Shown here in pieces: positions 2,394 to 62,224 of a stretch of DNA of 64,000 nucleotides. The DNA is taken from NCBI RefSeq assembly GCF_000003605.2, contig NW_003152254.1, positions 338,159 through 402,158 on the forward strand, in the 5' to 3' direction. This DNA comes from Saccoglossus kowalevskii (Eukaryota; Hemichordata; Enteropneusta; Harrimaniidae). The translations under genes and the position numbers were made by a program. The notes beneath the pieces were generated by a model, which was not told where the DNA came from, did no database searches, and was given only the letters and a program-made list of their open reading frames with translations. How positions within the stretch are numbered: position 1 is the stretch's first letter; each line of letters opens with the position of its first letter.

Positions 2394-2470
2394 TTAGAAC
2401 TTCTGCAGAAACAGGACGAATATGCCAGCTAACAATACCGACATACTTATAGTAATTGCCGAGGCTCCGG
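2394..2470 (-). CDS. Gene A exon 4: hydrophobic C-terminus (GPI signal or membrane span)
   Basis: The acceptor is TCTTTCAG. The phase-1 frame gives AGASAITISMSVLLAGIFVL, then FLQKF and stop TAA at 2394-2396. A cluster of tiny residues followed by a terminal hydrophobic segment is the GPI-attachment pattern. The Lys-Phe end also permits a span with a 2-3 residue tail. It was found only by splice-phase logic, being too short for an ORF scan. Confidence 0.75.
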
Positions 2471-5400
2471 CTGAAAGAATAAAGACAACAAACTTGTTAA
2501 TCATACTGTCGACAGTTCATTGCAATGAATATCGGGAAGACTGTAAGTTCGAATGAGAGAGGTCGTGTTAATCATTCTTGAACATTTTTGTTTCGCGCCA
2601 AAATATCTGTATATCGAAGTCGTATAATAATTGTCCCTCCTGACTTTGAGATCTTTCCCGGCCTGAGGCTAGCAACCGCCCTACAAGGAATATGTTCCAG
2701 CCTTCAACCACTTTAGATAAAAATCGAATATTTGATTAGAATCTAGCGACTTAACTCATTCATGCACTTGAGTGAGCAACAGTGATAGCACAACAAACAC
2801 ACACAAAATGGCGTCACGCTGCTGATTCGTCAAAAAATAAAACATGTGATAATAATATTCACCTGTGTTGATTATAATGTGATCATACTCTGACAGGTAT
2901 TCAATCTCTGGCTTCTGAGATGACTCGCACTTCAACACTTTGTTGTGGTCCTCCTCCTTGAACGTATAACGGAGGGTCGAAACTGTGTCAAAAGTACCGT
3001 CCCGGTTGTCTTCAAACTCTTCGGTGCCACCCTCGATCTCTCTGTTGTCAAGGTACCATATCAGCTCCGCTTGAGGGCGCCCACTACGTGCTTCGCATTT
3101 CATGTCGGTAGGCTCGCCGTGTTCGACGTACACGTAGTCCCCAGTGTAGTAGCCGAAGATGTCCACATCGTACACCACCTCTTTAAAATGAAAAAGAGAA
3201 GACATGAGTGAATATCATCGTATATACAAAAAATGATTTTAATATCTTCCTACGATTATTAAACCGGATTTATTTTAACACGTCTGAGCAAGTCGGAGTA
3301 ATTTGTAGTATAGACTTATCTACATAATTTATTAAATGATATATAGCATAATTATATTTTATTATTATTCAACATATATATTATGTGCAATAACAATCAC
3401 GTATATGTGATAACAGATGTGTTGTTGAACATGTTGAGATAGGTCAATAAAAACACGAATAAAAACGATATGCTACTATGGACTTACTGTATACTTCTAG
3501 TTGCGTGGTGGCGCTACCTTCATCTTTTACCACGTAGTAATCGACGTCGCACGTGAATGTACCGGTGTCTTCTACTTCTAGCCTCGTGATCCTCAGATCT
3601 CCCTGTGAGCCACTGATACTCGCTCGTCCAGAAAACTGACCGTAAGATGTTTCTGAACCAGTGCCCTCTTTCACCAATATCGTTTCGGTTTCCGATCCCC
3701 ACTCTGGCGTGAAATCCCACGTGATGACGTACTGACTACCGCCATCAGCCGGCGCTGTGTACGAGCACTCCAAAGTAATTGATTCTTCCTCTAGCCCCTC
3801 GTGTAAAGCTTGCGTCGTTACACTCAAACCATGTGCAGTGTAAGAAACTGCAAACAAACAAACAAACCAAAATTGTATTATTGGACCTGGATTTATAATT
3901 TTGTCATTGTTTTATAGACAGGAGAAAACTCTCGTCTTTTGTTAGTAATACTGTTAGTAAATACCATAAATGAAAGTTTAATGTCGCCGCAAACATGAAG
4001 TCCTGGTCCTAAATAAATTTTGGTTTGTTGTTGTTGGAACACAGGACAAACACACTTTGAGCACACAAAAAGTCATGCGCAGCAGACATTTTGCAGTAAA
4101 AGGCGTCTGTCTCGATCTGAGCCCACGATACGCGCATCACCGGCGCCACCTATGTTGTAAATTGGTAACGCGATCGGCGCTCAAATGCAATCGCCTGTGG
4201 TAAGTTGAATTCAATAAAACAGAATCTAATGAACATAATGATGTATCTCAGTTATGATAACAAGTATTACATTTCGAGGACCGTGACGATTCTTCTAATT
4301 GATCGCGGGAGTAGATAAAACGCTGCCACCACAGGTGATAAAAGCAGATGACTTTGTTTTTTTATACGATTTGGGTAAAATGGATACAAACAGTATATAT
4401 GATTAGTTAGTATGTTAGTATATATTGAGACGTTATTCGGGATAATGCGGAAGATTTAGCTTACTAAAATTAGTTGATGATGATGTAATCTGTAAATAAT
4501 TTAAGTAGGAGATTTTGTAACTAGTTATTGTATATTTAAATTTATATATTTTTCTGTAAAGGCATTAGTATAAGAATCAACTGTGTTTTCCCCCGCTTTA
4601 AATAAAGTATAATAATAATTGTCCACCGAAACGAGTGGGCGGCGTATTTCATTGTTTGCGCATTTACAATTATTGACATAGTCACCACTTTGGTATGCTA
4701 CATAAGTGTTCAAACTCGTCGGCGTACGGTTGTTATGATTTAAATCTTCAATGTCCCTACCTGGTACTATACAGGTAATCATTAATGCCATCGTATCAAT
4801 GACATTACTGTAATTGCGATGCTCTGCGCATGTCCTGTGATAGTGTAAAGATAAGAAACTCTACATGCACGCACCGCCTGGTATCTTAGAGGTGCCCCTT
4901 GCCGAACCATGTTGCCGTTAATTAATATTGGAAATACGATTTAAAATTACTATTCTGAATGCAACTTGAACGCATTCATTTTCCACTTTCAGAACAACAC
5001 ATGGCAGCTTTGTTTGGGCTATTTTCACGTATTAATTATTATATTGTTACATATTTATATTTCAATTAATGTGCTCAGTGATTGAATGTTGAGCGGGAAT
5101 TCGTATTTGAGAAGATGGGCAGATCTAAAAAACAATTCTTTAAAAATAATAGAAACCAGAATTATAGCATATATATGTATATAAAACGAAAAAAAATCGT
5201 ATTACTAGTACCAGATTGCACATTGTCGAAAACATTGAACTTGCTACATACTCAAGTTACAATATCAATGTCGATGACCGTCTGATTTGTGATCCGCAAT
5301 TTCGGCTCTCGTGCAATACACGTATACATCGAGCGGAAAACAAGCTTCTTTCAGCTAAGAAAGGTAAATTAAATAAATTGGACACGACGACTCGATTTGC

Positions 5401-7849
5401 GTACTGAACTCTCAGTGTTAAGTTTTAACTGCTCGAATTCAAATACTTTCACTTTTGAAATTTAAACTTATTTATTTGTTTGAACTTGTAACTTTCAGCG
5501 TCTAAAATTTGGAATAGAATAATACAGTCTACTAAGGTGCGATATTTTATAACCATGATGCCACGCATTTTAGACAATGAAGACTCGTGAAACTCAGTGT
5601 TCTAACCACCTAACTCACCCAGTCACGATGACTGACAACGTGTTGCGCAATCTACTCTACGCATCCTAAGATTACCCATGATGCAGCGTTCACCACATTT
5701 CATTGTGCATAGCCTAGTTCATGTTATTAACACTTGAACACACAATTTATTATTTTTGGCAATACTTACAGAATAGTCATTACATTGTCCTCAAATATAG
5801 TTGAAATGATTGTTTATTTTAGTAATCTTAGCGTGGGGGCCAGCGTTCAGTGCACAGTGCGTATAAAGTGTGCTCGGCACAGTAACATGTTTACATGGAA
5901 TTACTCCAACATGTGGTTCCGAGCACTGAACGCGATTCGACATAAATTGTGAAATATATTGTGAAACACGATGGTTTAGCTGTCTTGTTATTTCAGCTAA
6001 TTTAGCTTCCATGTGCATTCGCTAACAATTAGTAGCTAATTCAACAAGTGGCTATTCCAGCAAAAGTCAATTTGTATGATGGTACTGACGTTATTTTAAA
6101 TTGTGTTTCTGCTAATGCATGCTTTGCGCCGAAATTAGGTACAATAATAAGCTCTTGAATGTGTAACAGGTACCGCAGGTAACACGGTAGATCATGGACG
6201 CCAACGCATTCCCCACTTGTAACACATATACGCATGCGTATAAATGTGTGTTTCATTTTTAGATTCACTCGTAGATTGCTCACATGTATGGAATTCAAAT
6301 AACTAACACGTTTTTACTGTAATCTAGATGGCAGTGCACTGACCATACACGGACAAATAGATGACGTCATTTCAATGGCTAACTTTTTCAAGATAACATA
6401 TCGATTTCACCCGCGTCCTCGTCCGATTTCACGTTGATACAATTTTAGTTGATGTCAAGTGATTATTTTTTCCCAGAAAGCTTAGCGAGTTTGACAAAGC
6501 GTGGGACTATAGTTACTCGGCTGCAGTGACGTAATTGAATTATTCGCATCATCCATTTATATCCCCTGTGGAAGATTTTTGGCGGGAAGATTTGTGCACA
6601 TTAATATGTAAATTTACTGCGACATAGGTTATTCTATAAAATATTAACTATTATTTTTGATCTTAAACTTTAAAAAGTTTCTTTTTTCTTTTCTTCAGTG
6701 AATGGAATATGATTTATTTCACCATGATTGTCATGCATTTAGCCTCGCTTTATTGAATTCGTGTCAATCTCGACTTGATATGTTATCATTTACGTGTGTA
6801 TACGATCAAATTATACCAAACATAACCTGACCTTTGTAAATCACAGATCGAATTATGAACCTACAAGAACAAACAGTACCTGTAAAGTTTAAGGTGCTTT
6901 TGAAAAATAAATTAATCTAATATTTTAAAAACCTAGGTTTGTTCCGCGCGGGAAACGTTATTTTCAAATACTAGTGTTTAAAAATTGACGCATTTTGAGC
7001 GACCCGAACGTTAGCCTCTACTTGACATCCGCACTAGTGTAACTCATCGCCACCGCCACCGCCATGACGTGACATGCCACAAATATAACTACTTATAACG
7101 TTGAATCGCAATTGCCTCTCAGTGCATACCTGGGACACATTCAAATATCAGCGCCGACAATAAAAAAAACACATTTTAATGGAGCGACGTATAACAAATT
7201 CATTGCTTTGACAATATAATAGTGTTACAGCTCAGCCGCCAAAGCACATAAAACTACTTTACAATAAGTAACTAATTATTATTCAAAACCGCACCTTTTT
7301 TATCACTGATATCTTCTAAGTACATACAAACGATTTTTTTCATAATTTTATTTTTTAGTTATTTCTTCACTGTTTTCTTTTAATTTGACGTTCTATAACG
7401 ACAAATTTGCTGCCGATCGTTGCACTGGGTGATTTATATGTTCTTTTCATAACTTGTTTGCTTCATCAAAGCGATATAGTACGTGTCATGTACAATGTCT
7501 GGGGTCCACAAGTCCAAAAGGTTACGCGCCATTTTTGTTCGGTACCGCATGTGTGCAACAAGTGTTTGGTCTTAAAGCCAGACTGGTTATTTTCTGGTAC
7601 AACGCATTTAAAGACTCCTCCTGCGAAATTTCGTTTATAGAAAAAAATAATCAAAACACTGTAGGCATGTAGGCAATAAACTGTATGCTTAAATTTATAA
7701 AACTGTTTTCATCAGTTTTACAAGTTTAAGATAGAAGTAAATTTAAAACAAGAAGCGCGACACCTGTAATTATTTTTTGGTTAAATAATTGACAACGTGT
7801 GATTCGACTTACCTGTTAAGAACACGAGAAGTGCGGTGAGTTTTGTCAT
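2394..7849 (-). CDS. Gene A: two-Ig-domain (V-C2) surface protein, probable GPI anchor, 4 exons
   Basis: Spliced gene with exons 7813-7849, 3488-3847, 2863-3180 and 2394-2470. All introns are GT-AG and phase 1, and the joined frame is 263 codons plus stop. Residues 1 to about 18 form a signal peptide (MTKLTALLVFLT continuing into VSYTAHG). Residues about 20-132 are a V-type Ig domain with Cys40, Trp56 and Cys112 in a DTGTFTC motif. Residues about 133-238 are a C2-type domain (MKCEA, IWYLD, VLKCES). Residues 239-263 are a small-residue stretch (AGASA) and a hydrophobic tail ending LFLQKF. This predicts a cell-surface protein held by GPI or by a span with almost no tail, acting in adhesion or recognition by ligand binding. 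It is the leftmost and most divergent member of the cluster. Exon structure is read directly from splice signals and paralogue comparison; function is inferred from fold only. Confidence 0.85.
2863..3180 (-). CDS. Gene A exon 3: C2-type Ig domain
   Basis: The exon is 318 nt, phase 1 at both ends. The first residues are KVVYDVDIFGYYTG. The B-strand cysteine lies in MKCEARSGRP, the C strand reads LIWYLD, and the F-strand cysteine lies in VLKCESS. The absence of the usual DxGxYxC before the second cysteine is typical of CD80-like C2 sets, as in nectins and CADM. The donor is GTGAAT after ACAG. Confidence 0.88.
3488..3847 (-). CDS. Gene A exon 2: V-type Ig domain
   Basis: The acceptor follows a TTTG-rich polypyrimidine run ending in CAG, and the donor is GTAAGT after TACA. 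The 360-nt exon carries the whole V domain, including both cysteines, the ITW core tryptophan, the ITRLEVEDTGTFTC E-F segment and a G strand TTQLEVY. Gene A lacks the GxGxT form seen in the other members (it has GSATT). Confidence 0.88.
3848..7812 (-). other. Intron 1 of gene A
   Basis: A 3,965-bp intron between the signal exon and the V exon. No coding match was seen. It contains a foldback element near 5838-5936 and one TGACGTCA at 6362-6369. Confidence 0.6.
5838..5936. repeat. Foldback element in gene A intron 1
   Basis: The ends GCGTTCAGTGC near 5842 and GCACTGAACGC near 5924 are inverted copies about 95 bp apart. This is consistent with a small non-autonomous DNA element or hairpin. A partly similar end (ACACTGGACGCGATGA) occurs near 16593. 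Confidence 0.4.
7813..7849 (-). CDS. Gene A exon 1: signal-peptide start
   Basis: The exon encodes MTKLTALLVFLT plus one base, followed by donor GTAAGT. The hydrophobic core continues into the V exon. The same short phase-1 first exon occurs in genes C, D and E. The intron to the V exon is 3,965 bp. Confidence 0.75.
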
Positions 7850-20510: not shown

Positions 20511-20593
20511 CTAGCGAAACTTCCATAAAATTGAACTGATGAGTATTGAGCAGAGAATGTGCCAAGTCCTTCCTTCCAGCACCGCTGACCCGC
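20511..20593 (-). CDS. Gene B last exon: membrane-anchoring tail
   Basis: The acceptor is AAATTTACAG. It encodes SGSAVLEGRTWHILCSILIS followed by SILWKFR and stop TAG. The S-G-S-A triplet followed by a hydrophobic segment fits GPI attachment. The basic KFR end also allows a span with a 3-residue tail. Confidence 0.78.
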
Positions 20594-22532
20594 CTGTAAA
20601 TTTATACAAAAAATAAAGTTAGTGATAAATCAAAATACAGACGTTGCAGCACTATTGATTGACCTTAAACTTGAGATTGCACTCAATAAAAAATAGTGCT
20701 GCAAGTATGGTTAAATCCTGTTTGTTATTGTCCACTAAAATAGTATAATATATGGCCACGGTTGTTTGCATGATAGTGCTTAGATGATTTTTTTGATGAG
20801 AAATATCGTATATATTTTTAAGTTATTTTTTTCGGTTTGTACGATAGTTATAATATAATCAAACTTACTGGTGTTGATTGTGACATAGTCACTGACGTGT
20901 TGTGACGCAATTTCCGGTTCCTGGTTAGATTGGCATTTCATGATCTTTCCATTGTCGTTCTCACTGAATGTGGCCAAATAGGAACTATAGGTGTTGTAAG
21001 TAGCTTCGGCCTCGTTTTCAACAATGGTCTCCTCCCCTTGGCCGTAAAATGTGTCTCCCAAGTACCAGTTGAGTTTAGCAGCAGGGCGGCCTCTCAGAGC
21101 CTTGCATTGCAACTCGTGTTCCACTCCTGGTTTAACCATGTATTCTTGACCACGACCATGATCTACAATGTCGACATCCTCTACAACAGCTGTTAGGAAA
21201 AACAAGAGTTTGCATCCAAGTTACGTTACATCGGCTTATCGGTACCATAGGCACTGACATTATTTGCACTGAATGACACTTGATTCAAAGCAGTTCGCGC
21301 AGAATACGAATGTTGTACTACTGATCATGCTATTGTGTTTCGTTGAATTTTCTTAATTGTTGGTAAGTTTGTATCGTACGGTTATACGAATAATATTAAT
21401 TTGCACTAATAACAATGAAATTAGTGGGATTAGATGAAATGTTTTAAGAGTATTATCATTGATATCAATAGAAATGAATGACTTTTACATCTCATGTTAC
21501 CAGAGGAAATTTCAAATAATTAAAAAATATATATATATTTCATCGTACAGTACATTAGTGCAATTTTTTTTTCTTTGTCCATGACAATTGAGCTCGGCTT
21601 GGTTTCTCGAAAATACGAACCTGCTTTAAGGGGTAGTGTAGATAACATTGAACATAATGTCCCTTTTATTGTTGTCCCTACGCCCATTCCTAAGGGGGTG
21701 GTGACAGGCTGTCACAAGAATTTAATCGGTAATGTTGCTCAGTAAAACGCAGACAAAATAGTTGTATACGATATCATATACCTCGACATAATACAGCTAG
21801 GGGGCGAGCTTGGAGTTTCGATAAAGATCTATAGCCTATTTATGAAAAAAAATGCTTATTTGTCGCCAGAGAGCAAAGATTGAGTTTTCTCTTTGTGTCA
21901 TTTTGTGCACTATTCCCATAAGGTCTCAACTGGAAGGTGGTGTGAAGGTTGCAAATATCGAGTACATGTTGTTGATACCATGAACTATAAAGCCTGTGTG
22001 TGCATCGCGCACTAGCATTATTGACGCATAATTTTATCAAGGAAATTACTGACGTCGTACGGCGTGCGAGCGAATTTCGTTTAAACAGACAGCATACAGT
22101 TGTGTACGCTGCGCTACGACTATGGTGCTTTTAATTGCGTGGGAACAGAGTGATGATACTCACTGTATACTTTCATTAATGTTTCACCATGGCCGCTTTC
22201 CCTCGCGATGTAAAAATCAATAGCACATTGGAACATTCCGGAATCGACGAGCTCCAGACGAGATATGGTGATGTCTGCATGGGGCCCAGTGAGAGTCACC
22301 CGCCCAGCATAGCGTCCGAACGCTTCACCGTTCTTGTTGTCAATCTGACTGAAAACTGCTTCGACATCGCCCGTGACTTCTGAAATCATTGTCCATACTT
22401 TTGAGATATGCTGGGCGTCATCTTCAGGTTCTTCGTAGGAACATTTTAGAGTCGCTGATCCCAGTCGTAGTCCCTCCACCTCGGGCAGAGTTTGTACATC
22501 AAGAGTGCGTACAAGTGGCGTAGTTATTAAAA
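20511..22532 (-). CDS. Gene B: V-C2 surface protein, three exons seen, no first exon recognised
   Basis: Exons 22164-22532 (V), 20869-21189 (C2) and 20511-20593 (tail) are all phase 1 with GT-AG introns. The V exon starts with the second half of a signal peptide (VLITTPLVRTLDV), so an upstream ATG exon is required. I scanned 22533-27305 and found no candidate with the right phase. It is closely related to gene C (about 80% of V residues identical, nearly identical tail exon, matching introns and 3' flank), so it arose by recent tandem duplication. Either its first exon is unusual, it uses the gene C first exon by long-range splicing, or it is a pseudogene without a promoter. Domains and membrane tail are intact, with no stop or frameshift. 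Confidence 0.75.
20644..20704. repeat. Inverted repeat in gene B last intron region
   Basis: Perfect 13-bp arms TTGCAGCACTATT (20644-20656) and AATAGTGCTGCAA (20692-20704). The homologous position in gene C keeps a paired stem with different bases. Confidence 0.55.
20869..21189 (-). CDS. Gene B C2-type Ig exon
   Basis: The acceptor is TTTTTCCTAACAG and the donor GTAAGT. It encodes 107 residues: VVEDVDIVDHGRG start, LQCKALRGRPAAKLNWYLGD, and KIMKCQSNQEPE. Confidence 0.9.
22164..22532 (-). CDS. Gene B V-type Ig exon
   Basis: The acceptor follows a T-run ending in CAG, and the donor is GTGAGT. It encodes 123 residues with ATLKCSYEEPEDDAQH, KVWTM, the SRLELVDSGMFQCAIDFY F strand and the G-strand motif GHGETLMKVYS. 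Confidence 0.9.
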
Positions 22533-27305: not shown

Positions 27306-27388
27306 CTAGCGAAACCTCCATAAAATTGAACAGATGAGTATTGAGCAGAGAATGTGCCAAGTCCTTCCTCCCAGCACCGCTGACCCGC
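27306..27388 (-). CDS. Gene C last exon: membrane-anchoring tail
   Basis: Encodes SGSAVLGGRTWHILCSILIC then SILWRFR and stop. It differs from the gene B exon at 3 of 83 bases, and all three changes alter the amino acid. Confidence 0.8.
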
Positions 27389-30300
27389 CTGTAAATTTAC
27401 ACAAAAAATAGTTAGTGATAAAGCAGAACTACGACATTAGTAAATTTCTGTAAGATGTATTTGATGTATGAACCGAGCATTATTTGCATTGATTTTGCCG
27501 ACATATAATGTTGCAGCAATACTATTTGAACTTGGCCTTGAACTTGAGATTCGAACGCAATTACATTGCTGCAAGTATCATTAAATTATTATAAGTCTGA
27601 ATATTTATCTCTGAAACTAGCAATAAGCGAAATAATACTGCGATCGGGAAAAATACATGGCTACATTATTTACACTGCCATGCGTAAATGACCTTCAGGA
27701 AATAAGGGTTATTGTGTACGTTTTTAATATTGCTATTCGTATTTGCTATAAGATGTTAGTTTTCTCAGTTTAGAAGGGATCAAGCTCCATGTCAGGGGCG
27801 AACTGTTAATCGCTGCTTTCTGGAAAAGTTAACGGTCGTCAGCCTCAACACTAATTATTGTTCCAACCTCTGGCCAACATTCAGAATGACTGCTCCCCGT
27901 TTTTTTAGTGGATCTATTGGCGGGAAAGTCCATGGACGGTTTTGGTCCCAGTCCGTCCCTGCTCTTAGTCCTATTATTTTGTTCATTGCAAGCATCTCAA
28001 TTATTAGTAAACAAGTGCCTTACGATTGAAATAGAATATAATTACTACGAATTGTACGATAGTTAAAAAGGAATGTGGTTACTACGAATTGTAATTTAAT
28101 TAAAGCAGAAGTAATTACTACACATTGTTATCTAATTGAACAAATATAATTAATGGGAATTGTACAATAATTAAAGCTAATGTAATTACGTTAATTGAAA
28201 CGAATTGTATTACTACGAATTGTATATTAGTTAAAATAAAACTTACTCGTCTTGACCAAGACCCAGTCACTGACGTACTGTCCCATTAATTCCGGATCTT
28301 GATTGGATTCGCACTTCATGATCTTCCCGTCGTCTTCCTCGGCGAACGTAGCGTAGTACGTACTCCAGGTTTTGTAAGTGGCTCCATCGGTATGTTCATG
28401 AATCTCCTCCTCCCCTTGGCCGTAGAATGTGTCCCCCATGTACCAGTAAATTTTAGCAGCAGGGCGACCTCTTAAAGCTTTGCATTTTAGTTCCTGTTTT
28501 TCGCCTGGTTTGGCCCAGTATTCTTCACCTCGGCCATGGTCTATTATGTCGACCTCCTCTACAAGATCTGTTAGAAAAACAACAGTGGGTGCGTTATTTT
28601 TATAGAATGACACTTGATTTAAAGCAGCTCGAGCCAAAGTCAAATTCTGCAATAATAGACATATTATTGCTTTTATGCGCGATGAATTATGGTGATGTAT
28701 GATGGTATTTTAATTAATGCCACAGTGTCAAAAACAAGTGAAAAATGTACATATTTGCTAAACAATTGCATGAAAGGTATTTTCTTTGATGCAATTTTTT
28801 AAACTTAAAGCGGAGGGTCATCACCTGCGCACGCACGGGAATTGGGTTCCAAGCGACGATAACAACACACGCTAAAAACGCAAAGGCTCATGGGTAGATG
28901 CTTGTTTGTAAACAATGACACGCTATGGCATCTGACGCATGCGCCGGTGACGACTCGCCCGCTTTAATGCTGTTACTGCAATGTAACGAAATCATGAAAA
29001 AAATTACACCGCGGACAACGCAGCATCAAACAAGCCCCGGAAGTTCGAGCGGAATGTGTCGTGTTAGTCGTACTTTTATTATTAACATGCCATCAAGACA
29101 CAGGCAATAAAACACAATCACGCAAACGTTTTCAAGATACAAGAGATCCGAAATGTTATGTTTACACTGGTTTCCATGGTGAAAATATTCCTCCATATCT
29201 CAACATTGTGCTTGATGAAATGAAATACAAATAGCATTAGTTATACGATTCCTGATATTGTTAAAATATTTAAAAAGTTCAGTATGATAATATTCAAGTT
29301 AAAGTTTTCTCCTATATACACATTGCACATATGCGCAGTAGTGTGGAATTCGAATTCGGTACAAACTTCAATGACGATGATGATTTACAATGATGTAACG
29401 TGAAATGTTGTTCAGTATAAGCTCAGACAGCTAATAAATTAGTTGTCTGAGCTATAACGCAGACAACACGTGTGCGAGCTCTTGCGTAACACAGCTGGGA
29501 AACGGTGTTAGAATTCGAATAGAATCAATAATCGATTCATGACAAATATTTTTCCTATCCTCTGATCCACTGTTTCTGGCTTTTGAACCAGGAATTCTAT
29601 GAAGACTGTGGGTATATGTATTGTATTATCTTCGCAAAGTCCTTGGCTAACTAGGGATGAAAATGACTAGTACATAAGCAATTGTATTCGACTTAATATT
29701 GGGGAAGTGTTATAGTGTGCGTCGTGCGCCAAAAAATCATGTACATCCTGGTACGTACTATAAAGTACTGGCTCATTTTCAGTTTTACTTAAGAAGAGTA
29801 TTGAATGAGTCAGACGTCATCACAAACTAAAATTTGAGGTAATCGTAAACAACCAAATTGACATACATTTTGTATGTCACAGTGGTGGTAGGGTAGCTAC
29901 ACTGTTCGGAAGAGTCTCATCACCTAGCCCAAAGTACAGTTTTCTGAGAGTTTTCTTTTTTTTTCACCGTTGAGGGGGATGCTCGGCGACAAAAATGCTC
30001 GAATGACCACTGGTAGCCACATTACGTAGCACGCTCGCGACGAAAATATGGGAATCAGGATTTTACTACCGGTCGCCCAAGAGCATGTTTGTCTCAGTTG
30101 GCACAGGTTTAATAGACACACTAGTATATCTTATTCCAGAAATATCTTACACTTCATTTCGTGTGTACGACATTGGAGCCCCAAATTCGTCTATGTAAAT
30201 TAAAGCTGAGGGTTCATCACCTGCGCGAACGCGAGAATTGAGTCCCATTCGACAATAACAACGCACGCTAAAAACGCAAAGGCTCATGGGTACACGCTTG

Positions 30301-36560: not shown

Positions 36561-36563
36561 TTT

Positions 36564-42304: not shown

Positions 42305-42378
42305 TCACACAAAAAGTGAACTAAGTGCTATTGTTGAAATAATCAAAACAAAACTGACGACTTTCTTTGCTACACCAC
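42305..42378 (-). CDS. Gene D last exon: GPI-signal-like C-terminus
   Basis: The acceptor is TTATTCCTTTCAG. It encodes the small S-G-V-A site, two lysines as spacer, then an uninterrupted hydrophobic run to stop TGA at 42305-42307. Confidence 0.82.
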
Positions 42379-45036
42379 CTGAAAGGAATAAAATCATCAA
42401 TGAGTAGACAATATTTACAAATGGTCACCGAAATTTCGTTGTGACTGAGAAAACAAAGTGACTTATGTTTTGTTTAAGAACCTAATTTGCAAAAATGACA
42501 GTTATTCAGTTATTCAATTTAGAATCACAAGCAACTTACTGGTATTTAAAACGACAGACTCATATTTTCGTTTCCATTCCAACAATCGGGTATCTTGGAA
42601 TCCTTCACACTTGAGGACCGCATTGTGGTCAGACAGTGTCGGTACGATCACCACTGTGCTGTATGAATCGAACGTTCCGTCATCGTTTTCAGTAAAAGAT
42701 TCACTCTCTGGTGGCACTTTCTCATTACTCAAGTACCAATTAAGCTCTGCTATCGGTTTGCCACGTGTTCCCTCACAGTCGAATGAAATAGGCTCCCCTG
42801 GAGGTGCCCATACGTAATCACCAGCATTATATTTGAGAATATCAATAAATTCCACCATATCTGCAAATAAAAACAAACGTGATGGCGTTTTCTTTTCCTT
42901 CAATGTGCGCTGACTGGCTGACATACTCACCTACGTGTACCTATTCACTCCACTCACTCACACATCCGATCTCATCATATTGTCTCCATTTCCATTCAAC
43001 GTATTAGTCCCTTCCTTGTTATCCCATCCGTCACCCATTAAGTGTACATATGCACCTCCACCGTGAAATAATTTTAAGCCACAACGGCTAATGCTAAATT
43101 TTCTTAGCCCAATTAGCAATCTGTTTCGTTATGAAAGATTTTTTTTTTTTTTCAAATTCATATAAGCAGACAGCTTTTATTAGACAATATGCTCTCCTGG
43201 TATCTAATATACGTTTCTGTGGGTATTGACATATTTTTAATTAATGACCATTCTTTTTAGAATAATTCTTGTTTTGAATATTTTTTCATTGCACTTTTGA
43301 GGTAAACCAAATTATTTCTTCATTGTCTAGCGAGGGGTTAGTGAAAGCATGATGGATCTTCGGATCTTCTATCATCTATCTACCAACTAACACATACGTC
43401 CGCCAGATGAATTGTGATTATACTTACAATACACAATTAACTCTGTGTCCCCTTCACCATACGCCTTTGACAAATAAAAGTTGACTTCGCAAGTGTACAA
43501 ACCGTCTTCTTTTAACGTCACCTGATGAATGAGAATGTCGCCACGTGACCCCGTGTGTTCGATTCTGTTACCGAAAGGCCCGTAATACAACGGCTCGTTG
43601 TCGTCAGTTTTACTCATAATGACAATCTCTTCATTTGCGTCCGCTGGTTGGAACAGCCACGTGATTATCACATTCTCCTTGTAGTAGTCAGGATATTCGT
43701 AGTTGCACATCAGACCCACGGTATCGCCGTATACGGTCTCACGAATCTCGTACGTACTGACCCGTATTTCCGACTGTTGTGCGTAACATAACGCAATACC
43801 TATGAAATAATGAATTCAACATGAGTATGGTCATAATAAACTCATCCCAAGTTTTGCTGTAGATTCGTTTTGAAGTGGACAACTATTTCAGTCAGGTTTT
43901 AGATTAAAGCTAGGAGTCGTCACTTGCGCATGCGTCAGATGGCCACAGCGTGTCATTGTTTAAAAACAAACGTCTACCCATGAGCCTTTGCGTCTTTAGC
44001 GTGTGTTGTTATCGTCTCTTGGGACTCAAATCGCGCGCGTGCGCAGGTGACGACCCTCCCCCTTTAAAGTGTTTAATTATTTAGCTGATAGGTAAGGTCC
44101 CAAATCGGAATGACGTTAAAAAGACATGTTGCTGCGCACATGCACATCATTTTGCTATATTCCGACCGAGGGAATTTGTTGGCCTGTGAGAAAACAGCGG
44201 GTTTTTATACTTGAAATTTGAATGGAGCGAAGAAATGTGCAGTGCACGTGTCTCATAAACAAAATAGTTTCATTTGATTGAAGTAATTTCACTGAATTAG
44301 ACACAATAGCGGTATAAGCGAGCCATTGGTATCCGTGTCAGAAATGAAATTCACTAAAACCCAACATAATTTGCTGTCTAGGGCAGCTGGTAGAAAATGT
44401 TTGCCACTAAACAATAAGTAACAAAAAAATAAATAAACAACTTGAAAAACATGCTTGTACCTTTTATAGTCAGGTGTTACATATAGTTATTCATTAACCA
44501 TCATGGAATGCAATGGGGGTCAACCTAGCTAACAACACGGGTATTCGTGCAAAAAAACATGTCTACCTCGCTAACACTAAGACCAGCGAGACACACGGCA
44601 ACAATAAATAGTATGTCAAATAAGAAAATAGTTCCGGGCAACTTGAAATTTGCATTTTTTACCAAAACGTGATGGCAACATTTTCGCCGGTTTTTTCGCT
44701 TTTTTTTACCACCCTCTTAAAAAGTCGTTCGTTTTGGGGTATGTGTATGAAGACGCCATGGTTGATTTCATCCCAACGCACTATTTCTCAACGCAACCGT
44801 CTAAGTTCAAACGCCTGCACAGCCTACGAGAAACGTATGACATGCCTTGTTTAGCGACACGAGTATGATTCGTTTTGAAATGGCAGACAATGAATGTAGT
44901 AAATTTTATAGCACAGACGTAGATTGTAATAGCCCATGTAAATTATGCATCGATTTAACAACTGCTATAATATCAATGTAAACTCACCTGTTACAGCGAC
45001 AATAACTTTCAGAAGCACTCTGGTCGAATTCGCCAT
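42305..45036 (-). CDS. Gene D: V-C2 surface protein, probable GPI anchor, complete, 4 exons
   Basis: Exons 44988-45036, 43428-43799, 42540-42860 and 42305-42378 are all phase 1 with GT-AG introns of 1,188, 567 and 161 bp, giving 271 residues. The signal peptide MANSTRVLLKVIVAVT continues into GIALCYA, with cleavage likely before QQSEI. The V domain is at residues about 24-140 (GLMCNYEY, IITWLF, KEDGLYTCEVNFY) and the C2 domain at about 141-247 (SFDCEGTRGKP, LNWYLS, AVLKCEGFQ). The tail (248-271) reads SGVAKKVVSFVLIISTIALS then SLFV and stop, with no cytoplasmic residues, the clearest GPI signal in the cluster. A TATA box stands just upstream of the start. A TTAA MITE sits in intron 1. Function: cell-surface binding, ligand unknown. 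Confidence 0.88.
42540..42860 (-). CDS. Gene D C2-type Ig exon
   Basis: The acceptor is TTATTTGCAG and the donor GTAAGT. It starts MVEFIDILKYNAGDY and contains PISFDCEGTRGKPIAELNWY and HNAVLKCEGFQ. Confidence 0.9.
43428..43799 (-). CDS. Gene D V-type Ig exon
   Basis: The acceptor is TTATTTCATAG and the donor GTAAGT. 124 residues: signal-peptide end (IALCYA), VSTYEIRETVYGDTVGLMCN, the VTLKEDGLYTCEVNFY F strand and G-strand GEGDTELIVY. Confidence 0.9.
43904..44067. mobile_element. TTAA-family MITE, copy 6
   Basis: Full-length, reverse orientation to copy 4, TTAA at both edges. Lies in gene D intron 1, about 105 bp upstream of the V exon. Confidence 0.8.
44500..44645. repeat. Dispersed repeat family 2, copy 1
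   Basis: Shares GGGGTCAACCTAGCTAAC, AACATGT, AATAAATAGT and AAAATAGTTCCGGGCAA in order with 50005-50135. About 130 bp, in gene D intron 1. Class unknown. Confidence 0.55.
44988..45036 (-). CDS. Gene D exon 1: signal-peptide start
   Basis: Encodes MANSTRVLLKVIVAVT plus one base, with donor GTGAGT. The nucleotide sequence is recognisably homologous to both first exons of gene E (shared CAGAAGCAC, GACAATAAC and CACCTGTTAC-like blocks on the plus strand). Confidence 0.82.
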
Positions 45037-48339: not shown

Positions 48340-49640
48340 GGACCATGGGAATAGTCCTTATGAACTAGTCCAGTCCACGGCCCAGACTGCCAAGTAGAAA
48401 GTGACAAAGTACTGGTAAAGGAGAGGAAAATTACTATTTACATAACGAAAAGTGATCTATGAGATTTAGATATAAATATGAAGAAAGTATTATGTATAAT
48501 AATAATATAAACGAACTACTGGTACTATGAATTTACATGTTAAATAAAAGAAAAATATGCAGAGAAGTGGGAAGTAATCGAGGAATTCAACAAAGCAACT
48601 GTTTCATTTCGTTTTTAAATTTGTTTCTGTTTTTGAGGGAGTCTGTAAGTGAATTACAGTATTTTACTGCATCAAATTTAAAATTATGTTGTGAAACTGT
48701 AAGTTACCGCCAGAAACTGATCTTGTGGGATAGCAACGTGGGTAATCATTTACATACTTATTGAGGCTATATGCATATCTGTTGTGTTTAAGGTCGAAGA
48801 TAAAAAGACAGGTTTGTAATTTACAAAGTTTGTGAATATCAAGTATGTGTAATTGAATAAAAAGAGGAGCTTTAAAGTGCGAGAAGGTGATAAGGCGCAC
48901 AACCTTTTTTTGTAAGAGCAGAACTGGTTCAACTTGAAGTGTTGGGTATGTGTTTCCCCAGATTTAATACAGTACATTAAGTGTGGGATAATAAGTGTGT
49001 TGTAAAGTAGGATAAGAATTGATCTGTGAACATAGTGACGAATGCGAGCTATAATGTCCACTTTGGGACTGATGGTTTTCACAATTTTGTCAATATGAGA
49101 ATTCCAATGTAGGCATGGGCCAATGGTTACTCCCAGATAAGTCGCTGTAGACACGCCCTCTATCAACGTGTCATTGATTGCCAGCTGTCCCTCCACTTTT
49201 ACTTTTCTTTGCGGGGTTTTCAGGATCATATAGTTTTTTATATATATATATTAATTGTTAATTTATTAGATTTCAACCACTGAACAACATTTCCAAAATC
49301 ATTGTTAATTATTAGAAAGATCAATAGAGTTAGTTTGCATGAATTTAAATAAATTTGTATCATCCGCAAAGAGGTTGAAATTGAAAACATCAGTGGAGTG
49401 GTTAATATCATGTATGTAGAGAAGAAAAAGTAAAGGCCCTGATATTTATCCCTGGGGCACCCCGTATTGAATCTGTCTGGATGTGGATGCAGTTCCGTCA
49501 ATGCTTACTGATTGGTGTCTATTAGTTAGGTAGCTTCGGGACCACGAAAGCGGGAGACCCCTTATCCCATAATAAGCCAGTTTTTCGAGGAGAATTTTGA
49601 ATGAGAGTATCGAATCGAAGTAACGTGTATTATGATTGGC
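48340..49640 (-). mobile_element. Decayed, 5'-truncated non-LTR retrotransposon (LINE) reverse transcriptase relic
   Basis: On the minus strand, the frame around 49620-49450 reads LEKLAYYGIRGLPLSWSRSY and QIQYGVPQG, the conserved reverse-transcriptase block before GxxLGPLLF. A stop at 49446-49448 replaces the residue after QG. Then LLFLLYIHDIN and FADDTNLF follow, the catalytic Asp-Asp at 49359-49364. Further stops and frame changes occur to 49229. The frame then reopens with TATYLGVTIGPCLHWNSHID and a thumb-like segment to about 48750. A C-terminal NSLTDSLKNRNKFKNEM stretch lies near 48600, with an untranslated tail to about 48340. Jockey/CR1-like style. No endonuclease part is present and the copy is dead. 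Confidence 0.85.
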
Positions 49641-51426: not shown

Positions 51427-51427
51427 A
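51338..51427. repeat. (AAAT)n microsatellite
   Basis: About 22 uninterrupted AAAT units. Possibly the expanded tail of the LINE fragment just upstream. Confidence 0.93.
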
Positions 51428-53502: not shown

Positions 53503-53576
53503 TCAACTCGTTAGATGTCCCACCATGAGAGAAAACGCCAAGAGAGTGACACTTATTGCTGACGTAACAGCGCCAT
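53503..53576 (-). CDS. Gene E last exon: GPI-signal-like C-terminus
   Basis: The acceptor is CATTTCTTCCAG. It encodes NGAVTSAISVTLLAFSLMVG, then HLTS and stop TGA. The gene F last exon is clearly homologous at DNA level. Confidence 0.82.
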
Positions 53577-56500
53577 CTGGAAGAAATGAAAAACGTTGTC
53601 TTAGTCATATCACGTGTGATAATAAGTTTGCTAAATGCAATGATCACGTGACCAAATCAACCACTGCGCATGTGCCCTCTCTCTCCCATATGCATACATA
53701 CGTACTTGTGTTTATCATTATCGTTGCTGCTTTTGTCAGGTCTAAATCCGGTTGCTGGTCAGATTCGCATTTTAGCACTTCGCCATGATCGGAATCCTCT
53801 GGTGTAAACTGTAGCAAGCTGATTGTGTTGAAGGTACCATCTACATTTTCTTCAATTGTTTCGCCGTGTTGCTGCACTTCATTCAAACCCTTGTACCAAT
53901 GTAACTTTGCTGCCGGTTTGCCCATTGTAGCTTCACATTGAAGTGAGTTTGGTTCACCCGGGGGAAAGTAATATGAACTTTCCCCGCGATCTCGGGTCTC
54001 CCCGTACCCAAGGATTGAGATTTGGTCTACTAACTCTGCACAAAGTAAAACAAATGTATTAGCATATTAAAACATGGTTGTCTACCAATATAAAAGACGC
54101 TTTGTTGCTGTTGCCCACTCCCTCCCCCAGACGTCGCGATGTGCCGTGTTTGTTACGGTATACAACACATTACACAAAGTATATGTTCACTAAATTACGA
54201 AATTCGGACACGTAGCGCCATGAACGTGACGCCAGATAGTCAAGACGGTAAACTCGAAAACAAAACTTGGTTCAATCGCGCTGTTTAATTATATCTCAGT
54301 TGAGCGTTTACTTTTCTAAAGTCATTTTATTCAGGTCGCATTGGTTCTAAGGGATCAAACACTTGAATTTGTGAGATGTCTGGTTCAATGTATCTGAGTA
54401 TTTTTATTTTTTGAATGTGACAACTGTATATCCTGCACCACGCATTTTTTTCTTTCTGTGTCTAGCTAGTTTTAAAACAACTCTTCCGCCACACCCGTGA
54501 TTTCAATTGATCGACCCCTAAAAAAATATTTGTCAGGGCCGAATGATAAAGCTTGATGATTTTGGACAGTAATACTTACGACTGATGTGCAAGTTAGTAT
54601 TCCCCGACCCCGTCTCTTTGTCTGCATAGAAGTACACCTCACACGTATACACTCCCGCATCGGACAGTTCCAGCCGCGTAATATGCATATCTGCTTGGAC
54701 ACCGAGCAATTCGGCTCTACCGGCGAATCTTCCATAGACTATTGGATCATAAGTGTCGGTCATGCTGATCACCTGTTCTATCTCCGATTCGCCCTCTGGC
54801 TGCATGTACCAGTTGAGAACGCGCTGGACTGGATGGTCCTCGGGGTCTTCGAATCGACATTGAAGCTCAGCGGATGATAAGACTACTCCGTCAACGTCAG
54901 ACTCGGTTTGGACATCTATCTCCCCATTCACCGCTGACAAAACTGCAAATAATAGTAAACATGAATGACGATTGTTTTTATTGAACGAGATTAGTATTTT
55001 AAAATCCAGTCAGGGAGTTTCTCTCATTTGCATAATAATCCACTGAGTTACCATAGCTACGTAAATAGTAAAACATGCTACATGTTGTTATCTATTTGCT
55101 ACACTTCACCCAACATATGGGCTAAGCATACGAGTTGTCCAGATAACAGTACCCATGCTGGAATAGACGTTTACTTCATGATTTTGACTCCCAGTAGCAT
55201 TAGTGATTTTAATGGTAGCTTCATATCCAGTCGTGGCTTGAATAAACATCATTAGTTCAGTGAACCAACATTGCTTAGTAGTTTTGGGGGTTTCTGTAAC
55301 ACTAAAATCAACCAAGGTGAAGGGAATTTGAATAGTAATCCAGCGTGACAGTTGATAGTTATTTAGTGCTGTTACTTATACTGTCTATTTCATAAACAAG
55401 ACTACGTGATTTAAAACGCGCAATTACATTTTCGCGAATTTCGCGAGTCAGTGTAAATGGCAAAATTTTGTAGAAGTGAAAAATTTCCCCAGGGTCCCAC
55501 AACAAGATTAGCAGTAAATTGCTCCAGTGCCCGTAAGTAACAAAATCTGGGGAAATTAAGGATATGCTATCCTTACCAGTGGACAATAATACCCAAGCGT
55601 CTCAACGAGTTGCGGACATCAAGTTCCGAAAATATCGACTTACAAAATCTACCACGCCCCTCATTCAGAAACAACGCCCTAAATGTAACTCGAGGTTCAC
55701 TTAATAGTTTACAGAACTTCGAGTTACGGGAAACCTGTATTTTTGTTCATGTCGAACGTCCACATTTAGTAACTCGAACTTCGAGTTACGGGCAACATAG
55801 AATTTTTGTTTTCCCGTAAATGGAAGTTCGTTAAACTGATAATAAAAATTCGAGTTACTCAAATTTGAGCTTCAGCAAACAGCCGAACATTGCAGTATTA
55901 ATTAATTAATTAATTCCAGTGGGTTTTTTATCCAGTAATATGGTGTAAGATACCTGTGTACATTGCTTAGTGTAGTTGAATTCAAGCCTATCTTATCACG
56001 TTTTGCTACCATAAATCTAGCATAGGACAAAAATGCGAGCGGTCAAACATTCTACCATTGTTGAGTAGATAGTGCGACAGATATCGGGGCAAGGCAAATT
56101 TCCACAATAATTTGAGTCCATCCATAGCACTATTAAAAAATACAACTTAATGCATCTTACACAGAATATTAAAAGTTTACTAACACTGCTTTCCTTACAA
56201 GCTTTATACAGTTCCAGTCAGCCAGTTCGTACTGTTGTACATAGTTAAGCTGATGGATTCCATAAAGAATAACCATTTGGTAGTATAAAGTGGAGCATTT
56301 GACTTTGACTAGTCTGAGTGCGATTATTAGACCGCTGTCCTGCCAGTTAACAAATTTCACTACTAGAAACACGGGGATGGTTGTATAAAAAAGATTTATG
56401 ACGACGGATGTCATGTGACTCCTACCCTTATTGTTGGCAGCGGAGCATAATGGTTAAAGGTATAACGATCCCTGCGAACCCTCCCTCTTCCTTCTGTGGC

Positions 56501-57921
56501 TGTGTTTTTCCTACCTAACGGGAAACACATAATCACCTCAGAAGATCAATGGAAAGTTACAAATCAATCGAGCTCTCACCAATGACAGCGACAATAACTT
56601 CTAGCAATGTTGCACTCATGTTGACTTGGTGTTGTATGATGACTTGTTTACAACACTTTAGAGCTGCATTTGGCTGGAATTAGTGACGGCCAAAGGTTAA
56701 ATCGTGTTGTCCCGAATTTAATTAGGGGAGCGTATAATCCTGTACTGTGCCATGATAACAGGGTAATAACAGAAATGTGCGCAAATAACCAAAATATGAT
56801 AATTTTTCAAAAAAAAACAAAAAAAAAACAGTAAAAAGTCTTGGCAGTTTTTAGTATTGAATGACTGTTAATGGGAGTGTTATTCAACAATAATATGATC
56901 TCAATGTGTTTATACTTTCGATGTTTTATCTTTTGGGAGATTTTCAGAATTTTCGAATTTGAATATTTATGCAGATTAGGAAAAAAATCACCCTATGCCT
57001 GCAGATAGACAATAGCCACCAAATTAGACAATAAACAAAAAATGTATAAAATAGTGACTTTTCAGTCGACTGCACCCTCAAATTGTCTTTTAAGGAAACC
57101 GTAGAACGCGGCGCAACGCATGAAAAACACTGATTTAGGACAACTTGTCTGTGCAGACGACTCGACAATATTATTTTCACCCCAACTGTGTTACTTTGCA
57201 GTAATTTTCGGTGATTTGTTAAGAATCCCGAGAGAGTTTATTGCCTAGAGAATACTCGTGAGATATAAATTCAATGCAACAAGATAAGATAATAACGCCT
57301 GCCGCTATTTTAGTTTTAGTCATTTATTTGCCTGTCCGAATCCAATGTCTTCATTTTTAACTAAGCACATTCAACGCAATGTATTTCTCACTTGGATATA
57401 GGAATCGTTTATCTCAGATAAACGTTAATCCGATGTTTTCCGATTGTAACAATCATAACACTGCGTGTTATATGTAATATATTAAAGAATTAAATAATTA
57501 ATACTCAACTGATTTCAAATAAAATTTGATAAAGATCGATTGCAATATGCGGTTTGTTGGTGAAACATAGCTGTACCGTTAGTAGCACGAGGGAACTTGG
57601 TAAACCTATTATCGGACTGTTTTCCGTAGCATTAGGACGTAAAGTTTACCAATATTAGTACCAATTTACCAATATTAGTAGTTCGCGTACTGGATAGTTC
57701 GGTTATAGCAAACGCATAGTTCATGCCATTGGTTTAAAAACACACAAAAAACAACGAATACTTGACTGCGTGACGGCGAAATAAATCATGCATGACAAGT
57801 TATGATAGTCCATGTTGACCAAATCTGCTAAAAAAACTCGTGAAATAATCGATCAAAACTCACCTGTAACAACGACAATGACCTTCAGAAGCACGATCAC
57901 GTTGACTTTGGTAGATGACAT
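53503..57921 (-). CDS. Gene E: V-C2 surface protein, probable GPI anchor, with two candidate first exons
   Basis: The common exons are 54580-54942 (V), 53706-54035 (C2) and 53503-53576 (tail). Two first exons are homologous and both phase 1: 56580-56619 (proximal) and 57864-57921 (distal). The protein is 268 residues with the proximal exon or 274 with the distal one. The signal peptide joins MSATLLEVIVAVI, or MSSTKVNVIVLLKVIVVVT, to VLSAVNG, with cleavage before EIDV. V domain: ELQCRFEDPEDH, LNWYMQ, LSDAGVYTCEVYFY and G strand GSGNTNLHIS. C2 domain: LQCEATMGKPAAKLHWYKG and EVLKCESDQQPD. The tail starts NGAVTSAISVTLLAFSLMVG and ends HLTS with no basic residues, a GPI-type signal. Closest relative is gene F. 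Predicted role is recognition or adhesion at the cell surface, with alternative promoters as the likely control. Confidence 0.85.
53706..54035 (-). CDS. Gene E C2-type Ig exon
   Basis: The acceptor is TTTGTGCAG (a second AG two bases later would break the frame) and the donor GTACGT. 110 residues. The A-B loop carries an insertion (GETRDRGESSYYFPPGEP) shared in length and style with gene F. Confidence 0.88.
54580..54942 (-). CDS. Gene E V-type Ig exon
   Basis: The acceptor is TATTATTTGCAG and the donor GTAAGT. 121 residues with both cysteines, the core Trp and the GxGxT G strand. Confidence 0.9.
55699..55862. repeat. Short imperfect repeats around TTCGAGTTACGGG in gene E intron 1
   Basis: The motif AACTTCGAGTTACGGG occurs twice (near 55717 and 55778), with weaker copies (AACTCGAGGTTC, TTCGAGTTACTC) around them. 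A small degenerate tandem repeat. Confidence 0.4.
56580..56619 (-). CDS. Gene E proximal first exon
   Basis: Encodes MSATLLEVIVAVI plus one base, with donor GTGAGA. It matches the same ancestral sequence as the distal exon and gene D exon 1 (ATTGTCGCTGT core). Confidence 0.7.
57864..57921 (-). CDS. Gene E distal first exon (alternative signal peptide)
   Basis: Encodes MSSTKVNVIVLLKVIVVVT plus one base, with donor GTGAGT. It is closest in sequence to gene D exon 1. The only V exon downstream before another first exon is that of gene E. It may be an alternative promoter or the leftover head of a deleted paralogue. Confidence 0.65.
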
Positions 57922-59570: not shown

Positions 59571-59815
59571 TTGCATAGCATGACGTGGCGTGACATGACG
59601 TATTGTCAGATTCCATCACGTAACTTGTCCTGTCGTGAGAAGACTTGACGTGCATGGCAAGGTAAGACGTGACCTGAGCGATATGGCACGACCTTCTATG
59701 ACGTAGCCTGTCCCCACGTGAAGTGCATAACATGACGTGATGTGGCGCTATTTGGGGCAACGTGGAATGACGCGGCCCATCCTGACATTACGTCACGCCA
59801 TGTCACGTCACGTCA
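59571..59815. repeat. Degenerate TGACG/CGTCA-rich repeat
   Basis: Many short copies of CATGACGTGGCGTGACATGA-like sequence on the left and CGTCACGCCATGTCACGTCA on the right, in opposite orientations. The block is locally self-complementary and full of CRE half-sites. Confidence 0.5.
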
Positions 59816-60242
59816 CGCACCATCAAGTATTCGCTGTGGTGCTCCAACTCAACCGTACGTATATAGGGAAAGTGATCTCTGCAAATGGAATTACTGATGT
59901 CCCCCTTCCTCTGCTTGTGCCTGGTGGGAAATGGAATGTTAAAATGCTAAGAGCACAATCCATATTTCTGAGTATAGGTTACGCTGGACAATATTCACAA
60001 ATACGTTAGCCATTTATACAGAGAGGTTATTTATTATTATAGAGAAAGGTGTATTTTCACTTGGAATTTATTTTTATTGAAGAGATAATTCAGTGAAAAT
60101 ACTATTTCTGTTTTGCGTGCAATTTATCTAAAACCTGCTTAAATCAATTAAATTAACCGTAAATGTCATTTTAGAGACAATTTAATCAAGTGAAAATAAA
60201 CACAATTAACTTAGAACAATAATATCATGCTTCTTACCAAAA

Positions 60243-60316
60243 TTAACTCGATAGATATCCAACCACGACAGATAACATCAAGAGAGACGCACTTGTCGCT
60301 GACGAAGCAGCGCCAC
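60243..60316 (-). CDS. Gene F last exon: GPI-signal-like C-terminus
   Basis: The acceptor is TTTTGTTGTAG. It encodes SGAASSATSASLLMLSVVVG, then YLSS and stop TAA at 60243-60245. Confidence 0.83.
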
Positions 60317-62224
60317 CTACAACAAAATGAAACCTGTATATCGTCACCAGGCTTGGCAGAACGCATGTCGCGTGTGAAGTTAAAATGGGAGGGTCGTCAC
60401 ATGCGCACGCGCGGGAATTGAGTCCCAAGCGACGATAACAACACACGCTAAAAACGCAAAGGCTCATGGGTAAACAATGACACGCTATGGCCATCTGACG
60501 CATGCGCAGGTGACGACTCGCCCGCTTTAAATGAGATTCACGTAAGAATTTGACATAATGGGCAAATTGTGAAACTCATATCGACTGTGAAAACATGTTG
60601 GCAAGGAAACGACAATTATTCAAGGATATTTCAGTCGAATTCAAGCTTGCATCTAGTGCGCTTGCTACTGAGAGTATACGTTTTTATTTTAAATAAATTA
60701 ATATTATTAATAATAATAATAACAATAACGACATTTATAAGTTACATCACCCAGTAAAGCAAAGACTATTCCCCTTGTCAATGATCTTTAACCCCCTCCT
60801 CATAGAATTGACTGTTCTCATTTTCAATTTTCATTGCCAAGCGCCGTAGTATTTAATGTGAAACAAGGTGTTCTCAGTAAATATAAACAACTCAATCTTC
60901 AAGGGGGTGAACAACATAGATACGTTTTGTTTTAACAATACTAATGTTATACAATATAAGTACATAAATAATTAAAATAGAACCCCCGTCCCATGTATTG
61001 CGACGTATACGTACTTATGATTACAGATGCCGACTTCTTGAGTTCTATCTCAGGTTCCTGGTAAGATTCACATTTGAGGATAGCTCCATTGTCAGATTTC
61101 CGTGGCGTAAACTGCAACGTGTTGATCGTGTTGAATGAGCCATCCGAACTTTCTTCATAGGTTTCGACGGTCTCCATCAACTCTTCGTCATCCTTGTACC
61201 ATCTCAATTTGGCTACCGGTTTGGCCCGTGAAGCTCGACATATTAAAGTCTGTGGTTCATCCGGTGGGAAATACTTGACGACCTGTTCGCCTTCTGGACC
61301 TTCTCCGAGCCCGAATATTGATACTTGGTCCACGATCTCTGCACAAATGTACAAATATACTTAATTGAAAAAAAGAGAATCTGATTCGTCCATCTATGAA
61401 TCAATTCTCGTAAAACTGTCAAATAATATAGTTATGTCGCGAAAGCTGATTATATATCCAAGAGTCTGACTATATCTCGGTATAAATATTGCAATATCTT
61501 ATTATATCGCGGACTATGACTATATTTTTGGAATTGGTTGTATTGCGATATGATATCGCGAGGGATCGCGAGATCGAATCATATGATCTCATTCTGACTC
61601 TTTATCAGGGAATATTGAAACATAAATCACTCGATGAAATAACTCCCATATCCCCTCACTTGAAACTACGACACGATCTCAGAGGAACGAATTTTGTATA
61701 TTCGTCTGTAGTATGAGCTGTTCTCTCGCACTAAATTATGACGTGAAAAGAGATCTGCAAACAATAAGATTATCGCGATAGTACGAGATCATACTAACGT
61801 GTGATGTGCGAGTTTCTCGTGTGATAAATTCATTGTATGGACTTACTGCTGATATACACTTTAGTATTTCCGAGTCCCTCCTCTTTTGCAACGTAGTAAT
61901 TAACCTCACACGTGTACACGCCCTCATCGGCAAGTTCAAGCCTGGTGATTTCTATGTCACCCTGTTCACCGAGCATCCCATCACCCCTTGCGGGCCCTGC
62001 TCTTCCGGCGTACGTTCCATAAACCTCGGCATCTTCCCTGTCCACCATGCTAAGCACGTGTTCCATGTGCGTGTCGCCCTCACGTGTCTTGTACCATTGG
62101 ACGAGTCGTCGCAACGAATGTTCGGAAGCTTCTGGAAATCGGCATTGAAGGGTAAGCGTACGATCAACCACTCCTTGTACTTCCGGCAAGGTTTCGACTT
62201 GTAGAGCGGTTACTACTGACAGAG
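60243..62224 (-). CDS. Gene F: V-C2 surface protein, probable GPI anchor; first exon outside the window or not seen
   Basis: Exons 61847-62224 (V), 61015-61338 (C2) and 60243-60316 (tail) are phase 1 with GT-AG introns of 508 and 698 bp. The V exon opens with the end of a signal peptide (ALSVVTA before LQVETLPE). V domain: LTLQCRFPEAS, VQWYKT, LADEGVYTCEVNYY and G strand GLGNTKVYIS. It carries a 7-8 residue insertion with an RGD tripeptide between the D and E strands. C2 domain: LICRASRAKPVAKLRWYKDD and AILKCESYQEPE. The tail reads SGAASSATSASLLMLSVVVG then YLSS and stop, a GPI-type signal. It pairs with gene E by domain and tail sequence. No suitable first exon occurs up to 64000, which matches the 1-4 kb first introns of its paralogues. 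Confidence 0.85.
60380..60530. mobile_element. TTAA-family MITE, copy 7
   Basis: TTAA at both edges, with intact ends, inside gene F intron 3. It lacks the short GACGCTTGTTTG block just after ATGGGTA. Absent from the paralogous gene E intron (129 bp), so it inserted after that duplication. Confidence 0.78.
61015..61338 (-). CDS. Gene F C2-type Ig exon
   Basis: The acceptor is CATTTGTGCAG and the donor GTACGT, the same unusual donor as in gene E. 108 residues starting KIVDQVSIFGLGEG. Confidence 0.9.
61847..62224 (-). CDS. Gene F V-type Ig exon with RGD insertion
   Basis: The acceptor is TTATCCCCCACAG and the donor GTAAGT. 126 residues, the longest V exon of the six. The extra residues GPARGDGM follow YAGRA. 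The codons for Arg-Gly-Asp are at 61980-61988. Confidence 0.9.

Follow-up and report, generated by a model that had tools for sequence, protein, structure and literature searches.

A tandem array of V-C2 immunoglobulin-superfamily genes with GPI-type tails in Saccoglossus kowalevskii: candidate adhesion or recognition ligands

What is the role of a tandem array of two-domain immunoglobulin (Ig) genes whose members all appear to end in a glycosylphosphatidylinositol (GPI)-type tail? The question is raised by six genes, A to F, in the hemichordate Saccoglossus kowalevskii. The window analysed is a stretch of 64,000 nucleotides (nt) of contig C4225 (NW_003152254.1; C4225:338159-402158), in which window position x equals contig position 338158+x. 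The genes are lettered from high to low coordinate, which reverses the lettering of the initial annotation (its B is E and its F is A); the cluster's outer limits, 2394 and 62224, are taken over from that annotation. They probably form part of a small family of GPI-anchored, V-then-C2 Ig-superfamily surface proteins, most likely adhesion or recognition ligands whose V domain would mediate binding in trans and which would signal only by way of partners.

All six genes are encoded on the minus strand between 2394 and 62224, and each has a V-set exon followed by a CD80-like C2-set_2 exon. This is the plan proposed in the initial annotation, and the hidden Markov model search that it recommended bears the plan out. 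Six of six V exon reading frames (30.8-51.9 bits) exceed the Pfam V-set cut-off of 26 bits, and six of six C2 exons (31.3-44.6 bits) exceed the C2-set_2 cut-off of 21 bits. The V-then-C2 order of the broad V-C2 group of the Ig superfamily is present on phase-1 exons, 12 of 12 of them over the cut-offs. The exon boundaries, phases and tails first read from the sequence also hold: every junction is GT-AG and in phase 1, and all six spliced frames stay open from the V exon onwards, with the stop codon in a tail exon of its own. The family's own profiles, run over the window, detect no additional V or C2 exon and no degenerate extra copies; one extra profile row (E 0.85) overlaps the V exon of gene A in another frame.

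The tail exons of A-F are 74-83 nt long and encode 24-27 residues with a hydrophobic end and a GPI-type signal. A scan for an acceptor, a residue triplet and a hydrophobic C-terminus, with the triplet filter set after the tails were known, gives 11 rows at six places on the minus strand of the whole window, exactly the six tail exons, and no site on the plus strand. In 20 Markov strands the mean is 0.1 rows and the maximum 2, and a chance origin of the tails is rejected. When candidates over 9 kb are ranked by score, the gene's own tail takes first place in C, D, E and F but ranks second in B and third in A. The ranking for A is topped by the tail of B, and the assignment is settled by proximity and similarity. 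Over a 184-kb contig stretch reaching beyond the window (~38 kb of it N), a near-equal filter adds the three tails of an outlying gene, G, and one site 0.3 kb behind the third, with none on the plus strand. Together with the tail of gene H on contig C3994, chosen by likeness among 11 loose candidates, 10 of 10 family tails have an X-G-[A/S/V] start, a hydrophobic end and at most 6 residues after the most hydrophobic 12-mer. The C-terminal GPI signal is predicted by a sequence heuristic, neither by a predictor nor by experiment.

No cytoplasmic exon is found in genes A-F, and the C2-tail introns of B (129 nt) and C (161 nt) leave little room for more exons. The claim that the tails are uniformly of GPI type and the products devoid of a signalling tail agrees with the scan. 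In gene F (window 2756-2863, minus strand), the frame continues to a second hydrophobic C-terminus, ..AILCVFVVLSLLLTQVHE, when the C2 donor is unused, and intron retention could likewise yield an anchored product.

The features of the window are listed below. V and C2 exons are assigned by profile score (V-set and C2-set_2, respectively) and splice sites, tail exons by tail scans and splicing, and the signal exons of B, C, D and F by a signal-exon scan.

61847..62224, minus: gene A V exon (37.8 bits)
61015..61338, minus: gene A C2 exon (44.6 bits)
60243..60316, minus: gene A GPI-type tail exon, SGAASS...
57864..57921, minus: gene B signal exon
56580..56619, minus: second exon of signal type, ahead of the V exon of B; either a relic or an alternative first exon
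54580..54942, minus: gene B V exon (46.9 bits)
53706..54035, minus: gene B C2 exon (39.2 bits)
53503..53576, minus: gene B GPI-type tail exon, NGAVTS...
44988..45036, minus: gene C signal exon, with TATAAA 44 nt upstream of ATG
43428..43799, minus: gene C V exon (40.6 bits)
42540..42860, minus: gene C C2 exon (34.2 bits)
42305..42378, minus: gene C GPI-type tail exon, SGVAKK...
35096..35138, minus: gene D signal exon, possibly common to D and E
30383..30751, minus: gene D V exon (35.9 bits)
28247..28567, minus: gene D C2 exon (31.3 bits)
27306..27388, minus: gene D GPI-type tail exon, SGSAVL...
22164..22532, minus: gene E V exon (30.8 bits), without a convincing signal exon of its own
20869..21189, minus: gene E C2 exon (34.4 bits)
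20511..20593, minus: gene E GPI-type tail exon, SGSAVL...
7813..7849, minus: gene F signal exon
3488..3847, minus: gene F V exon (51.9 bits)
2863..3180, minus: gene F C2 exon (43.9 bits)
2394..2470, minus: gene F GPI-type tail exon, AGASAI...

A four-exon plan had been described, with three exons seen in E and A, and signal exons are indeed identified in the window for four of the six genes, B, C, D and F. The 1.8 kb remaining in the window upstream of gene A yields weak candidates only. A 19.4-kb N gap begins directly at the window end, and the signal exon of A may lie beyond that end. The signal-exon regions of B and C are identical at 34 of 42 nt. The second signal-type exon near B has 27 of 42 nt in common with the signal exon of C and 23 with that of B, against a background maximum of 21-24. 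The DNA upstream of gene E is gap-free; nine candidates from a looser scan were rejected, the best of them lying in repeat copies or in the exons of D. No counterpart of D's signal exon stands above background near E. This is a weak negative, because the signal exons of D and F share only 14-21 of 42 nt with the others and are likewise not alike above background.

Own-genome searches cover one assembly of 572 Mb, and their counts are lower bounds. The V exon of D finds at least eight V exons, and the V exon of H finds the same eight. Seven of these belong to one tandem array, six in the window and that of G outside it, and the eighth is that of gene H. The six-gene cluster of the initial annotation is confirmed within the window, but the array is larger, with the V exon of G 2.7 kb beyond the left end. 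In the 60 kb on either side of the window there is no further V or C2 exon besides gene G. Both outlying genes have the same tail type as A-F. The C2 query finds at least 18 places, of which six are in the window, three in G and one in H. The remaining eight are weaker and spread over six other contigs; at E 0.01, no V exon of the family lies within 1.5 kb of any of them. Two of the weaker loci, on C539 and C1691, were read further. On C539, the C2 exon is preceded by a V-like exon (E 0.064) and followed by more Ig-like frames; this locus looks like a longer multi-Ig gene rather than a family member.

The product of each gene would be a secreted ectodomain in which a C2 stalk carries the V domain away from the membrane and a GPI anchor attaches and displays the protein at the cell surface. 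Its V domain would bind in trans as an adhesion or recognition ligand, and signals would be passed only through partners. The V-domain model, compared by VIA-align, is nearest to MPZ, CAR and nectin. Antibodies, however, score almost as high against the V model. The tails of D and E, the weakest GPI cases, end in basic residues.

The change between paralogues is informative in two pairs, D/E and A/B, since in the other 13 of 15 pairs synonymous divergence (dS) is undefined or >2 in each domain. For D/E, the NG86 estimates of nonsynonymous and synonymous divergence (dN/dS) are 0.13/0.48 in V and 0.23/1.03 in C2, and for A/B they are 0.38/1.31 and 0.38/1.26. The ratio is 0.22-0.30 in both pairs and both domains. 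In all 61 overlapping windows of 25 codons from the four comparisons, the proportion of nonsynonymous differences (pN) is below that of synonymous ones (pS). These values show purifying selection on both domains in the two pairs, and where change is measurable the array looks conserved rather than hypervariable. For D/E, synonymous divergence is unequal in the V and C2 domains (Fisher P 0.02), which hints weakly at gene conversion.

Gene G, the most unusual member of the array, poses a further question, as it has one V exon and three C2 exons, each of which has its own GPI-type tail exon:

C4225:317970-335492: gene G overall, 2.7-20 kb left of window position 1
C4225:335492-335133: gene G V exon, phase 1
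C4225:329042-328725, 325055-324738 and 320274-319957: three C2 exons, phase 1
C4225:328231-328164, 324466-324399 and 318037-317970: three GPI-type tail exons, phase 1

The assembly is without N from 319882 to 335601 of this contig. Between the modules of G there is no gap-free, phase-1 open exon with C-W-C spacing in a scan that recovers the V exons of G and F, and a hidden V exon is therefore rejected. The sole candidate for a separate signal exon of the second and third modules reads like a dispersed ~150-nt repeat and is discarded. The absence of such an exon is not a strong negative, because the same scan also misses the signal exon of G's V exon, which a 552-nt gap just upstream may hold. 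The C2 exons of G group in a single clade (99/99) and are 60-68% identical, with a dN/dS ratio of 0.24-0.38 and pN below pS (Fisher P 3e-7, 7e-5 and 1e-3), values that show purifying selection on all three. In the tails alone, which are short, pN is below pS in one of three pairs (P 0.04; others 0.44 and 1.0). Upstream of the C2 exons, similarity over 1.5 kb is confined to 45 nt adjoining the exon in one of three pairs; it is also present behind the tails.

That the modules have stayed intact, each lacking its own V exon, suggests by inference that the V exon of G is spliced to each of them. This layout suggests that the three C2-GPI modules are candidate alternative 3' cassettes, and together with gene E, which is without a recognisable signal exon, it suggests module choice by splicing. 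A locus of this kind, in which the V exon of G may join any of three C2-GPI modules and the V-C2-GPI module of E may be spliced to the signal exon of D, would have fixed binding domains and interchangeable stalk-and-anchor modules. It is put forward tentatively, as somewhat less than an even prospect. The layout of G could also stem from a misassembly, or from separate upstream exons that are too short to be recognised. A V-C2-C2-C2 join is also phase-compatible in this gene, though each C2 exon has its own tail exon.

Within the adhesion or recognition reading, and overlapping with it in probability, falls the special case of a Beat-type neural-wiring family of GPI-anchored or secreted V-C2 receptors for larger Ig partners. 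According to PMC5578738, Beats have two Ig-superfamily domains, their isoforms are either secreted or membrane-bound, and some of their genes are clustered; PMC9743010 discusses for Beat a potential GPI signal that cleavage exposes. The best PDB profile matches are, however, scattered over the Ig superfamily (SYG-2, JAML, Robo1, CD276, MPZ, nectin-1 and PD-L1), and the wiring role is rather doubtful.

An innate immune cluster, whose V domains would bind microbial or damage ligands in GPI-anchored or shed form and diversify by tandem duplication, appears unlikely. Tandem clustering and divergence among the paralogues favour it, as does a G-x-G-x-T V-domain end, which we take to be J-like, in A-E and H but not in F and G. 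An intact 499-codon open reading frame (ORF) with a Mab-21 domain (C4225:309567-311063, minus strand) lies ~7 kb beyond gene G on its left and points the same way. However, Mab-21 proteins are not always immune sensors, both testable pairs are under purifying selection, the V exons detected number just eight (a lower bound), and the window has no degenerate copies. Trans recognition or adhesion is a likelier function than immunity or wiring.

An allorecognition locus of polymorphic self-markers controlling fusion or rejection is improbable and least supported, because selection between close paralogues, the one line of evidence at hand, is conservative. The array is a linked, same-orientation family of two-Ig surface proteins, and the Alr genes of Hydractinia are likewise clustered Ig-superfamily genes of low identity (PMC11067881), but the array has GPI-type tails and constrained domains, and no near-identical, allele-like second copies turned up in the own-genome searches. 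The recognition-locus role first assigned to the cluster is supported in its tandem two-Ig, GPI-type architecture and not supported in its allorecognition sense, against which the few V exons also count. Caution is advised in reading every tandem two-Ig cluster as allorecognition where the measurable selection is conservative.

Other features of the surroundings are as follows. Right of the array, beyond the gap, lie a seven-transmembrane receptor ORF and pieces that by eye resemble an amiloride-type sodium channel. The ~150-nt repeat occurs in both orientations at window 11501, 16703, 25520, 28805, 30199, 43904 and 60380, with one copy inside the C2-tail intron of A. A 30-nt satellite array spans window 36557-40516 (N gap 39438-40233), and two further tandem arrays, with units of 20 nt and 5 nt and spurious open frames of some length, occupy 16893-17954 and 32781-33047. 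On the minus strand at 48664-49504, ORF pieces resemble by eye the end of a non-LTR (long terminal repeat) reverse transcriptase, for which Pfam gives no match. Rfam and tRNA searches give no match, and the prokaryote and viral collections contain no relatives of the Ig genes. The mitochondrial contig L046 (C4830; 17,037 bases) has COX1 on the strand opposite to COX2 and ND1, and two in-frame AGA codons in ND1. In COX1, COX2 and ND1, AAA is read as Lys at positions that we take to be conserved; together with the AGA codons, this argues against an echinoderm or vertebrate origin.

The literature searched contains no description of this V-C2-GPI family, which cannot thereby be called unpublished; related work includes PMC11999971. 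JAM/CTX and nectin homologues exist in Ciona and Branchiostoma according to PMC2777377. The array shares its V-then-C2 order with these families, and its V model is near MPZ, CAR and nectin. JAM/CTX and nectin proteins have a membrane-distal V domain followed by C2, and JAM/CTX members have a transmembrane segment and a cytoplasmic tail. In A-F a GPI-type tail exon replaces this region (by the tail heuristic, in 10 of 10 family tails), and the genes stand in a tandem array with seven V exons. Nectin/CADM proteins have three Ig domains, V-C2-C2, in one chain, which is not present in the A-F models.

Drosophila Beat is similar in its two domains, its secreted or membrane-bound forms and its partly clustered genes, but every array member has a dedicated GPI-type tail exon. 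Hydractinia Alr is a linked family of diverged surface proteins with V-set domains like the array. Alr1 and Alr2 are single-pass transmembrane, highly polymorphic proteins with V-set and I-set domains, whereas the array has C2-set_2 domains, tails of GPI type by the heuristic, and constraint between close paralogues. Chordate VCBPs are secreted and combine V domains with a chitin-binding domain, and differ from the six models with one V, one C2 and a GPI-type tail. Clustered GPI-only V-C2 proteins offer a compact test case for the evolution of recognition ligands that have no signalling tail.

The C region of the Ig heavy chain is chosen by splicing in IgM/IgD, and the V exon of G upstream of several C2-anchor modules resembles this 3' module choice. 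Gene G differs in that it is without rearrangement and in that its modules, whose alternative use is putative, are of the C2-GPI kind. The cassettes of chelicerate Dscam are reported at the 5' end, whereas the modules of G lie at the 3' end. If the V exon of G is shared among three C2-GPI modules, the locus would be comparable, at the germline level, to the choice of constant regions, here in a family of invertebrate surface receptors. Exon choice would then diversify the constant part instead of the binding part, in a case other than vertebrate antibodies.

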